From a virus, in the IMG/VR virus record IMGVR_UViG_3300040960_000264, positions 1 to 20,941 of that record: a stretch of 20,941 bases of DNA. The stretch is one strand, 5' to 3'. Made by a program: the position numbers and the translations under genes. A model generated the notes under the pieces. It was not told where the DNA came from. It saw only the letters and a list, made by a program, of their open reading frames with translations, and searched no databases. Shown in pieces: positions 322-4,546 of this stretch (the stretch's first letter is position 1; each line of letters opens with the position of its first letter).

Positions 322-410
322 CGAGTCAGACCCGACTAGAGATTCCTGACTAGTATATGGCCTTTTACGGCGAAGTTCTAACACGAAGCACCAACTGTGA
401 TGTGCTCAAT
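322..410 (+). repeat. Structured element, copy 1 of a tandem duplication
   Basis: This 89-nt element is repeated once, 95 nt downstream (417-506), at roughly 88% identity by eye (10 substitutions and one indel). It lies in the non-coding interval between thyX and the next gene. It can fold as a 6-bp stem AGTCAG/CTGACT (324-329 with 346-351), a short GCC/GGC hairpin (360-362 with 369-371) and a 5-bp stem AGCAC/GTGCT (387-391 with 402-406). Several differences between the copies keep pairing, which suggests a folded RNA. No tRNA cloverleaf or known riboswitch core was recognised. The function is unknown. Confidence 0.7.
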
Positions 411-416
411 AAAAAA

Positions 417-506
417 CGAGTTAGACCCGACTAAAGATTCCTGACTAGTATGTGGCCTCTTACGGCGAAGTTCTGACACGGAGTGGCAAACTGTGATGCA
501 CTCAAT
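417..506 (+). repeat. Structured element, copy 2 of a tandem duplication
   Basis: This is the second copy of the element at 322-410, separated from it by AAAAAA (411-416). The first stem becomes AGTTAG/CTGACT (419-424 with 441-446), where a C-to-T change turns a G-C pair into a G-U wobble. The GCC/GGC hairpin stem is unchanged. The last stem becomes GAGTG/CACTC (481-485 with 499-503); in the aligned positions one C-G pair is replaced by U-A and one A-U by G-C, although a third pair is lost. The copy ends about 50 nt before the ATG at 558, so it could be part of a leader RNA or a separately processed RNA. Confidence 0.7.
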
Positions 507-1102: not shown

Positions 1103-2702
1103 CAACCCACACTTAGCTTGTCCGTACACTGATTGCGGATCAAGTGACGCTTTTAATTGGAATGATGACGGTTTTGGCCATTGTCATTCTTGTTCGAGAG
1201 CCTACCCATCCAAGGATATGCCAGAGGTATTTGAATGGGTGAAGGCTGAATATCCTTTGAAAGAAAGGAGAAACCCTATGGACATACCCATAGTGTCACA
1301 AACACATGAGGGCATACGTGGCCTTGATGCTGATGTAGCTGAACTGTATGGCATTGCCTTGCAGCAAGGTGAAGATGGTAGGCCAGTACGTTATGCTTAC
1401 AAGTATCCACACACGGTCAAGTACCGACTGGTGGATGATAAGTCCAAGTCATGGACTAAGGATCGGGGCATGGGCATGAACCATCTGTTCGGTCCAGAGT
1501 TCAACGCAGGTACATCTCAACGTATCTATCTTACCGAGGGTGAGTTCGATGCTGCCTCGCTGTATCAAATCCTGGGCAAGACATTCCCCGTGAAGTCACT
1601 ACCCAGCGCATCAATCGGTGAGAAGTTCATTGCACACAATCACCTTTATCTGTCGTCGTTCAAAGAGATCATCTACGCAGGTGAGCTTGATCATGCAGGA
1701 CGTAGGGCAGCTGACAAGTTGTACCAAGCATTCCCAGATAAGTTCTGGTATGTCCCTATGTCCAAGCACAAGGATGCCAATGACTTCTTGCAAGCAGGTG
1801 ATGGTAAGGACTTGATGTGGGCAGCTAAGAAGCCCATGCGATACAGCCCTGAAAACTTCTTCTGCTCTAGTGAAGACTTCTCTAACGCACTACGCACAGA
1901 GAACCCTTACGAGTATGTACCTACAGGTCATGCAGGACTTGACGAGAAGATTCGTGGTATGGTTAAGGGTGGCCTGACGTTTATCAAAGCCCCTCGTGGT
2001 ACTGGTAAGACTGAGGTGATCCGTTACTTCGAGACTGGCTTACTGCACAACGAGGGTGTCAAGGTAGCTCTCTTGCACATGGAAGAGATGAAGTCTACCA
2101 CGCTACGTGCTATGGCTACGTATGAGCTAGGTGTCAACGTCCGTACCAAAGAGGATGCAGATCGTAATGGCTATACCCTTGATCAAGTTGAAGCAGCAGC
2201 CAACAAGATTGCTGACTCTGATAACAACAGGACGATCATCTTTGAGATGCAGTCTCATGACGATCCTCTGACCTTGCTTGACTACACACGTATGGCAGTC
2301 ACATCTTTCGGTGCTGACTTCGTGTTTGTTGATCACGTACAACGTCTGGCTTACTTGTCCAACTCTGGTGTTGATGGTGCTACCAGTACTCTGACCACAC
2401 TTGGGTCACGTATGGCGCAGCTTGCCAAGGAGTTGAACATCGGTGTGGTATTTATATCACAGGTCAACGACGATGGACGCACAAAGTATGCAGCCTCTCT
2501 TGAAGAGGAAGCAATTATCTGTGTAAAGATCGAACGTGATACCGAGTCCGAGGATGAAATACTTCAGAACACTACTGAATTTATTGTTGACAAGAACCGT
2601 CCATTTGCTAAGTTGGGCAGAGCAGGTTCAGTCTACTACGATCCAGAGACAACGATCCTGACAGAAGAGATACCTTACGAGAGGAGTGATATAGCAGCAT
2701 GA
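1089..2702 (+). CDS. T7 gp4-like DNA primase-helicase
   Basis: This is a bifunctional replication protein that makes RNA primers and unwinds DNA at the fork. From the GTG start (537 aa) the order of domains is clear. An N-terminal zinc motif has C11, C16, C32 and C35. A TOPRIM primase domain shows E150-G151, the acidic pair E199-L-D201 followed by HAGRRA, and KDANDF. A RecA/DnaB-type helicase has Walker A APRGTGKT (301-308), Walker B VFVDH with D415, and the sensor-like FISQ. The C-terminal DKNRPFAKLG resembles the arginine-finger region. In TOPRIM the usual DxD is ExD, a conservative change. It overlaps the polymerase gene by ATGA, so both are translationally coupled. T7 gp4 is 566 aa, so the length is normal. 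Confidence 0.93.
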   Translation: MANNDNPHLACPYTDCGSSDAFNWNDDGFGHCHSCSRAYPSKDMPEVFEWVKAEYPLKERRNPMDIPIVSQTHEGIRGLDADVAELYGIALQQGEDGRPVRYAYKYPHTVKYRLVDDKSKSWTKDRGMGMNHLFGPEFNAGTSQRIYLTEGEFDAASLYQILGKTFPVKSLPSASIGEKFIAHNHLYLSSFKEIIYAGELDHAGRRAADKLYQAFPDKFWYVPMSKHKDANDFLQAGDGKDLMWAAKKPMRYSPENFFCSSEDFSNALRTENPYEYVPTGHAGLDEKIRGMVKGGLTFIKAPRGTGKTEVIRYFETGLLHNEGVKVALLHMEEMKSTTLRAMATYELGVNVRTKEDADRNGYTLDQVEAAANKIADSDNNRTIIFEMQSHDDPLTLLDYTRMAVTSFGADFVFVDHVQRLAYLSNSGVDGATSTLTTLGSRMAQLAKELNIGVVFISQVNDDGRTKYAASLEEEAIICVKIERDTESEDEILQNTTEFIVDKNRPFAKLGRAGSVYYDPETTILTEEIPYERSDIAA

Positions 2703-4546
2703 TTGTATTTGATGTAGAAGCTGACGGACTACTTGATCAGGCTACAAAGATACACTGCTTATCCTATACCCATGATGGTAAAGACTACACAACTTTGTAC
2801 GACTACTCTGATATGCGTGATCTAATCCTAAGCCAACGTGGTTTGATTGGTCATAACATTATCAGATATGACGTACCACTTCTTGAAAAGATCTTGGGTA
2901 TCAAGGTGACAGCACGTCTCTTTGACACACTGCCTATGTCTTGGGTACTAAACTACGATAGACCTAAGCATGGCCTTGAGTCTTTCGGTGAGGACTTTGG
3001 TGTACCCAAACCTCAGATTGATGATTGGCACAACTTAACTCAAGAGGAGTATGCACACAGATGTACCGAGGACGTGAAGATAAACTGGTTGCTATGGCGA
3101 GACCTGCTAAAGCGGTTCATGTTTATCTACAAAGACAAGGTACAGCTAGACAAGTTTTTTCGCTACCTGCAGTTCAAGATGGATTGTGCTTCAGTTGCGG
3201 AACGAATCGGATGGAAGTTGGATATCGAGTTGGCACAGAAATGTGTTGACGACCTTACTCAACAGAAGTCTGAGAAAGAGGCAGAGCTTATTCAAGTGAT
3301 GCCAAAGCGCAAGGTGACCACCAAGAAAAGAAAACCAAAGAATTGTTTCAAGCAAGATGGTTCTCCATCTGCTCATGGACAACGTTGGTTTGACCTCCTA
3401 CAAGAGAACAACCTTCCACCACACTTTGATGGTGAGGTAGAGGTTATCAAAGGTTGGGATGAACCTAATCCTAACTCTACCGATCAAGTCAAAGATTGGT
3501 TGTACTCTCTTGGTTGGGAACCTTGCACTTTCAAGTATGACAAAAACAAGGAGACTGGTGAAGAGAAGAAGATTCCACAAGTCCGTAAGGATGGTGAACT
3601 AACAGACTCAGTGAAGCTGATTGCCGAAAGTAATCCTGCTGTAGAAGTTCTTGAGGGTTTGACTGTGATGCAACACAGACTCAAAATCTTTGAGGCATTC
3701 ATCGAGTGTGAGCAAGATGGGTATGTCCGTGCTGAAGTTGATGGTCTTACCAACACCTTACGATTCAAACACAAGAAACCTTTGGTCAACCTTCCTGGGG
3801 TAGACAGACCGTGGGGTAAAGAGATACGTGGCTGCTTGGTTGCACCAGACGGTTACATTCTTTGCGGTGCTGACATGACATCTCTTGAAGATACAACCAA
3901 GAGGCACTATATGTATCCATATGATCCTGGGTATGTACACGAAATGTCTCAAGAAGGTTTTGATCCACACTTAGACTTGGCTAAACACGCAGGTGCTATC
4001 AAGCAGTCTGACATTGACGCTTACAATCAAGGTCAACGTCCAGAACTCAAAGCACTACGCAAGAACTACAAGGTTGTGAATTACTCTGCGACCTATGGAG
4101 TTGGTGCAGCTAAGTTATCTCGCACGACAGGTATGGCTATTCCCCATGCTCAGTCATTGCTTGATGCTTATTGGAAACGTAACTGGTCAGTCAAAGCATT
4201 TGCTGAGGCGCAGAAGATACGTAAGATCAACGGTGAGATGTGGGTACAAAATCCTGTCAGTGGTTTCTGGCATTCGCTTCGTTATGAGAAGGACGTGTTC
4301 TCCACGCTTAACCAATCCACTGGTGCCTACTGCTTTGACAAGTGGGTTGCGTACTACAGAACACGTAGACCAAACATCATTGGTCAGTTTCATGACGAGT
4401 CTATCAACCTAGTAAAACAAGGGGAACAGAATGAACACAGTGATGCATTAAACTGGGCTATTGAAAAACTTAATCAAGAACTTAAATTAAATGTTGACTT
4501 GGGTATTGATATTCAATATGGTCAACGTTATAGTGACGTACACTAA
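2699..4546 (+). CDS. Family A DNA polymerase (T7 gp5-like) with 3'-5' exonuclease
   Basis: This is the replicative DNA polymerase, 615 aa against 704 in T7. The N-terminal proofreading exonuclease has Exo I D5-V-E7, Exo II N53 to D58 and Exo III D125, although the usual Tyr four residues before D125 is R121. The polymerase has motif A with D392 and E397 (DMTSLEDTT), motif B RKNYKVVNYSATYG (R454, K458, Y462, Y466-G467) and motif C HDE (565-567). Y462 corresponds to E. coli Pol I Phe762 and T7 Tyr526, the residue governing ddNTP discrimination. Motif A has Thr at 399 where Arg is usual. An ATGA overlap couples it to the primase-helicase; the SSB gene follows 15 nt later. Confidence 0.95.
   Translation: MIVFDVEADGLLDQATKIHCLSYTHDGKDYTTLYDYSDMRDLILSQRGLIGHNIIRYDVPLLEKILGIKVTARLFDTLPMSWVLNYDRPKHGLESFGEDFGVPKPQIDDWHNLTQEEYAHRCTEDVKINWLLWRDLLKRFMFIYKDKVQLDKFFRYLQFKMDCASVAERIGWKLDIELAQKCVDDLTQQKSEKEAELIQVMPKRKVTTKKRKPKNCFKQDGSPSAHGQRWFDLLQENNLPPHFDGEVEVIKGWDEPNPNSTDQVKDWLYSLGWEPCTFKYDKNKETGEEKKIPQVRKDGELTDSVKLIAESNPAVEVLEGLTVMQHRLKIFEAFIECEQDGYVRAEVDGLTNTLRFKHKKPLVNLPGVDRPWGKEIRGCLVAPDGYILCGADMTSLEDTTKRHYMYPYDPGYVHEMSQEGFDPHLDLAKHAGAIKQSDIDAYNQGQRPELKALRKNYKVVNYSATYGVGAAKLSRTTGMAIPHAQSLLDAYWKRNWSVKAFAEAQKIRKINGEMWVQNPVSGFWHSLRYEKDVFSTLNQSTGAYCFDKWVAYYRTRRPNIIGQFHDESINLVKQGEQNEHSDALNWAIEKLNQELKLNVDLGIDIQYGQRYSDVH

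Follow-up and report, generated by a model that had tools for sequence, protein, structure and literature searches.

Rickettsia palindromic elements are bacterial, multicopy sequences of about 100 nt that occur in coding as well as RNA genes, often in frame, and T7-type phages carry RNase III intercistronic sites, in which an interrupted hairpin separates genes of a shared transcript. Bacterial 23S rRNA genes, among them those of many Alphaproteobacteria, can contain intervening sequences that RNase III removes (PMC4990558). The intervening sequence of tmRNA also tolerates inserts, for example a tRNA gene (PMC11915505), and the permuted, two-piece form of tmRNA (Rfam RF01849 / RF04321) is known to be carried by marine phages (PMC9004378).

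The RNA element described here can be set beside each of these. Like the 23S rRNA intervening sequences (PMC4990558), it is a sporadic insertion, compact and base-paired, that occupies a tolerant loop in a structured RNA and has apparently been transferred horizontally; it differs in belonging to phages, in residing in tmRNA or intergenic RNA rather than in a 23S rRNA helix, and in forming a three-way junction with invariant loops, and its excision would be by analogy. It shares with the Rickettsia elements the form of a palindromic insertion of about 100 nt, but is non-coding and phage-borne, with covarying helices and conserved loops. Like the T7-type sites it is an interrupted hairpin between phage genes on one transcript, although we know of no conserved junction of this kind in those sites, nor of any movement of them into tmRNA. 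Permuted tmRNA is directly connected, since in three homologous loci the element lies within the intervening sequence of that RNA and lengthens its stem, whereas the copy studied here lies between protein genes, with no tmRNA in the same stretch, and the tmRNA models count the element as an insertion that they do not model. We tentatively favour the view that it represents a new RNA family of about 100 nt, mobile among marine phages, which could act in cis as a processing or insulation module in the manner of rRNA intervening sequences.

The window, by which we mean the whole stretch of DNA analysed, is a 20.9-kb marine phage fragment with genes for thyX, a DnaB-type primase-helicase, a family A polymerase, a Cas4-type nuclease and RNR on the + strand and structural genes on the − strand. 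Its nearest isolates are Roseobacter phages such as CRP-6, whose polymerase is 55% identical, and a large structural protein is 25–28% identical to that of the Roseobacter phages CRP-9 or CRP-207. The 244-nt gap from the thyX stop codon (313) to the reading frame at 558 is mostly occupied by two copies of a repeat, and the element was found at this one place in the record, itself a fragment. Open reading frames overlapping the element region are antisense only, and a promoter and terminator scan of the sense strand was empty. Neither Rfam nor ARAGORN found a tmRNA, with its tRNA-like acceptor and tag reading frame, in the window. The features of the locus are as follows.

2–313, + strand: C-terminal part of thyX (flavin-dependent thymidylate synthase; Pfam Thy1 1.1e-19, PHROG 85), the upstream neighbour
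314–511, + strand: whole structured element, most likely a single three-way-junction unit in which 95 nt are duplicated internally; ends match the single-copy loci L281, L434, L439, L445, L416 and L426
318–321, + strand: 5' strand of P0, ACGG, pairing with CCGT at 508–511
322–411, + strand: repeat copy 1
322–341, + strand: 5' arm of the outer unit (P1 322–323 and 325–330, P1c 332–334, P2 337–341), pairing with 457–480 of copy 2; cross-copy double changes C327–G475 and G339–C459
349–354, + strand: apical palindrome ACTAGT, pairing in the joint fold with ACTAGT at 444–449 of copy 2; GCTAGC in L281 and L439
362–385, + strand: 3' arm of the inner unit (P2 362–367, P1c 368–370, CGAAGT 371–376, P1 377–382 and 384–385), pairing with 417–436 of copy 2; A380–T422 and T364–A434
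387–406, + strand: P3 hairpin of copy 1, AGCAC/GTGCT, loop with AACTGTGAT
417–507, + strand: repeat copy 2
417–436, + strand: 5' arm of the inner unit (P1 417–418 and 420–425, P1c 427–429, P2 432–436)
457–480, + strand: 3' arm of the outer unit (P2 457–462, P1c 463–465, CGAAGT 466–471, P1 472–477 and 479–480)
481–503, + strand: P3 hairpin of copy 2, GAGTG/CACTC, loop with AACTGTGATG
548–553, + strand: Shine-Dalgarno-like AAGGAG, which arrived with the cassette
558–860, + strand: next gene, a small protein of unknown family, which abuts or overlaps thyX directly in relatives lacking the element

A preliminary description of this DNA had reported two copies 95 nt apart, and these are present: positions 322–388 and 417–483 are 91% identical, and the full copies carry the described substitutions and one 1-nt indel. 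The 3' hairpin that it had singled out also stands, with two double changes between 387–391/402–406 in copy 1 and 481–485/499–503 in copy 2. The 5' stem that it had put forward, AGTCAG with CTGACT, is possible in the window but not conserved in the homologues, where the partner region is variable; the conserved partner of 325–330 is TCTRAC, located in the other copy. Similarly, GACCCGACTA, which had been read as a loop, includes helix P1c together with the first part of P2.

Single-copy homologues begin with ACGG, end with CCGT and fold into a three-way junction of P0, a P1–P2 arm and a P3 hairpin. In an alignment of eight units, P0 (ACGG/CCGT) is lengthened by flanking pairs, P1 joins CG and GTYAGA to TCTRAC and CG across an A·A mismatch, P2 (TAAAG/CTTTTA) leads into a variable apical part, and P3 (GAGTG/CACTC) closes the invariant loop AACTGTGATG, conserved at the RNA level as AACUGUGAUG; P1c is CCG/CGG, or CAG/CTG in L281. 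CGAAGU is a conserved internal loop of the P1–P2 arm, so that two unpaired motifs, CGAAGT and AACTGTGATG, are invariant next to the freely varying apical part. The three-way junction appears in the fold of lowest energy for the window as well as for L445, L416 and L426. Folding energy is no better than chance for copy 1, copy 2 or the pair (z = +1.0, +0.3 and +0.1 against dinucleotide shuffles), nor better than shuffles for most units, and the case therefore rests on the homologues and their covariation.

This covariation supports the earlier proposal of a structured RNA under selection, for which it had been named as the deciding evidence. Nine pairs are changed on both sides among the eight units. 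The covariation score was 0.202 against 0.108 ± 0.015 in shuffles, none of 500 reaching it, and slid-structure controls were only 21–49% paired; the eight distinct units are mutually related, a relatedness that the shuffle control leaves in and the slid control removes. When the arms are taken within each copy, 95.0% of cells are paired, the misses in P1 and P2 being C·A in copy 1 and A·C in copy 2; when they are taken across copies (5' half of copy 1 to 3' half of copy 2 and vice versa), P1 and P2 are 100% paired, and 96.9% of cells are paired overall (P0, P1, P1c, P2 and P3). We rejected a fold of each copy by itself, which is no better than shuffles and leaves these mismatches. The outer ends of the two-copy block are also those of the single-copy element, and together with the cross-copy pairing this makes it most likely that the window holds one element, internally duplicated and re-paired across its copies, instead of the two independent units of about 90 nt envisaged at first; this reading is well supported but not proven, the choice between the cross-copy and within-copy phases being decided by two pairs only. 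The window copy thus appears, as modelled, to be a natural RNA domain swap that followed duplication and yielded one long interrupted hairpin, to which two older variants could have contributed as a mosaic.

Seven IMG/VR contigs (L002–L008) share the element region of the window. In five of them the element is identical over 198–199 nt, whereas thyX is only 77–91% identical where comparable and the following genes differ, which indicates that the element spreads as a cassette among marine phages. Close relatives provide the empty site: their thyX continues straight into the next gene, and the element is therefore an insertion that brought its own AAGGAG. At thyX a clear target duplication was not seen. 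In element-bearing contigs the final 40 nt of the gene (273–313; the same place in L003–L007 and L281) are 97–100% identical and further upstream the identity is 71–91%, as if the end of the gene were a recombination anchor.

Beyond these contigs, a single-copy version lies behind thyX in L281 and L434, and L426/L432 carry copies on the downstream side of a gp2.5-like gene, in a T7-like phage that encodes a family A polymerase. In L426 (~90–450) two pairs of direct repeats flank the element, one of them a hairpin (GGGAAAAGAGGGAGTGCCTTCACAAGAAAGACTC), making this another modular intergenic region. A first gapped pattern, GATTCCTGAC..GGCGAAG, matched only known contigs, because it lay partly inside the variable apical part, and a 5'-arm pattern gave one more partial copy, L462, of the L416 type. 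The element was absent from INPHARED; a covariance model found no copy in 385 + 296 (about 680) alphaproteobacterial genomes, and a pattern search none in 398 genomes of the phylum; absence from these genomes is not proof. One weak covariance match, L456, was taken as chance; it is antisense to the reading frame of ribosomal protein S10.

Further copies lie within permuted tmRNA genes (L416/L442/L462, L439 and L445). The Rfam alpha_tmRNA and tmRNA_permuted models place them in the intervening-sequence loop, between CGCCTCCACCA and GGGGGCGAA, and a tRNA-like acceptor and a tag reading frame were found in L416, L439, L442 and L445. These copies lengthen the stem CATAAACAC/GTGTTTATG, which, where the element is missing, ends in a short loop in Pelagibacter phage Mosig and encloses a small reading frame in Methylophilales phage Melnitz (L465, ~230–400); Roseobacter phage DSS3P8 has a different structured insert in the loop (L467, ~535–650). 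In marine phages generally, this loop appears to serve as a landing site. L416 also encodes an ssDNA-binding protein, PhoH and thyX typical of T4-like phages, and is the one clearly T4-like carrier. Its tmRNA and thyX are close neighbours (2656–4480), as they are in Mosig (L466, 464–1067), a closeness that may explain how the element reached thyX loci. Homologues had been anticipated between thyX and the following genes; such copies exist, but their company inside tmRNA and beside a gp2.5-like gene points to a mobile cassette and not to the leader of one operon.

In the cis-acting reading that we tentatively favour, the element would settle where an extra RNA domain is tolerated, in the intervening-sequence loop of permuted tmRNA, behind thyX or between replication genes, and would act on its own transcript, as bacterial rRNA intervening sequences do. 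Its stacked helices may form an RNase III-type processing or insulation site that parts the thyX mRNA from the following mRNA, and its own ribosome-binding site could make up for the coupling that thyX and the next gene have lost. The strong conservation of unpaired bases exceeds what a bare RNase III hairpin needs and counts against a processing site.

That same conservation of CGAAGT and AACTGTGATG leaves room for a trans-acting small RNA or decoy, a possible but doubtful reading in which a stable RNA is released from a well-expressed precursor (the tmRNA intervening sequence or an operon mRNA) and its loops bind a host protein or RNA. Processing is expected on both sides of the element in a tmRNA precursor, as this would demand; excised rRNA intervening sequences, however, are usually unstable (PMC4990558). 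We hold with similar reserve a wider scenario, in which a mobile RNA specific to phages lands in tmRNA intervening sequences and intergenic RNA, is set free as a stable RNA that acts in trans and has conserved loops, and can become a domain-swapped double structure by internal duplication.

Sporadic presence, empty sites in close relatives, spread across unrelated phages and the internal duplication are also what one would expect of a selfish palindromic insertion, kept without benefit because its landing sites are tolerant, as with the Rickettsia elements. We consider this unlikely: compensatory changes, together with unpaired motifs that do not vary, imply that the RNA as such is under selection; neither a transposase nor a clear target duplication nor a multicopy genome was found for the element; and in each context seen it is oriented with transcription. 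More improbable is a cis-regulatory leader of the downstream replication genes, as the preliminary description had allowed, or a riboswitch for them. The element does lie directly 5' of a ribosome-binding site and the replication operon, but identical elements precede differing genes in different contigs, other copies sit in tmRNA, and there is neither an Rfam riboswitch match nor a sigma-70-type promoter in front. Least probable is a new class of self-cleaving ribozyme, since the compact junction, the conserved unpaired bases and the location in transcripts where cleavage is tolerable are countered by the lack of an Rfam ribozyme match and, to our knowledge, of any resemblance to known catalytic cores. 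Across Rfam, no family (riboswitches, ribozymes or others) reached its gathering score, and a relaxed threshold gave only chance-level snoRNA matches, in keeping with the earlier statement that no known family is present. The covariation, the tmRNA placement and the length together are not matched by any of origin iterons, tandem phage promoters, solitary CRISPR-repeat mimics or packaging RNA. The data give no firm decision between cis processing and its rivals (trans-acting RNA, selfish palindrome, leader and ribozyme).

A second structure, separate from the element, follows it.

515–542, + strand: H-type pseudoknot, CACC 515–518 with GGTG 527–530 and TGAGCA 520–525 with TGCTCA 537–542

Written as NNNC-C-TGAGCA-A-GNNN-TAAAAC-TGCTCA, or in general form C-CTGAGCA-x-GNNN..AAAACTGCTCA, this pattern matched at least 120 stretches in viral contigs; besides the window, the motif is represented by loci L279–L399, L400–L405 and L468–L475. 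Stem 1 was left free in the pattern, and among the matches listed its two innermost free pairs are Watson-Crick in all 118 with a 3-nt arm, and four types of pair occur at each; stem 1 covaries strongly. The pattern prescribed stem 2, and compensating variants of it occur in L279 (TAGCCA/TGGCTA) and Rhizobium phage RHph_Y65. Of the listed pseudoknots, 89% follow the stop codon of an open frame of 40 codons or more at a distance of at most 30 nt, compared with 15% of random positions. A tRNA begins 2–13 nt downstream in 45 of the 127 matches listed, 43 of these being tRNA-Asp, and the tRNA-Asp-linked cases are probably largely one phage lineage. Isolated phages of Mycobacterium, Arthrobacter, Paracoccus, Rhizobium, Lentibacter and Synechococcus also carry the pseudoknot. 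It is absent from Rfam, was not found in the part of the literature covered by our search, and among the thyX loci examined never lies directly behind a thyX that lacks the element. Its simplest role would be to protect the 3' end of the upstream mRNA after cleavage.

With the element, marine phages gain an RNA family that is supported by covariation and uncatalogued in Rfam. The pseudoknot, which follows stop codons and precedes tRNAs in phages whose hosts differ widely, is probably the finding of wider reach. The occurrence of one element both in a stable-RNA gene, that of tmRNA, and at intergenic sites of unrelated phages implies that non-coding RNA domains travel between phages as cassettes.
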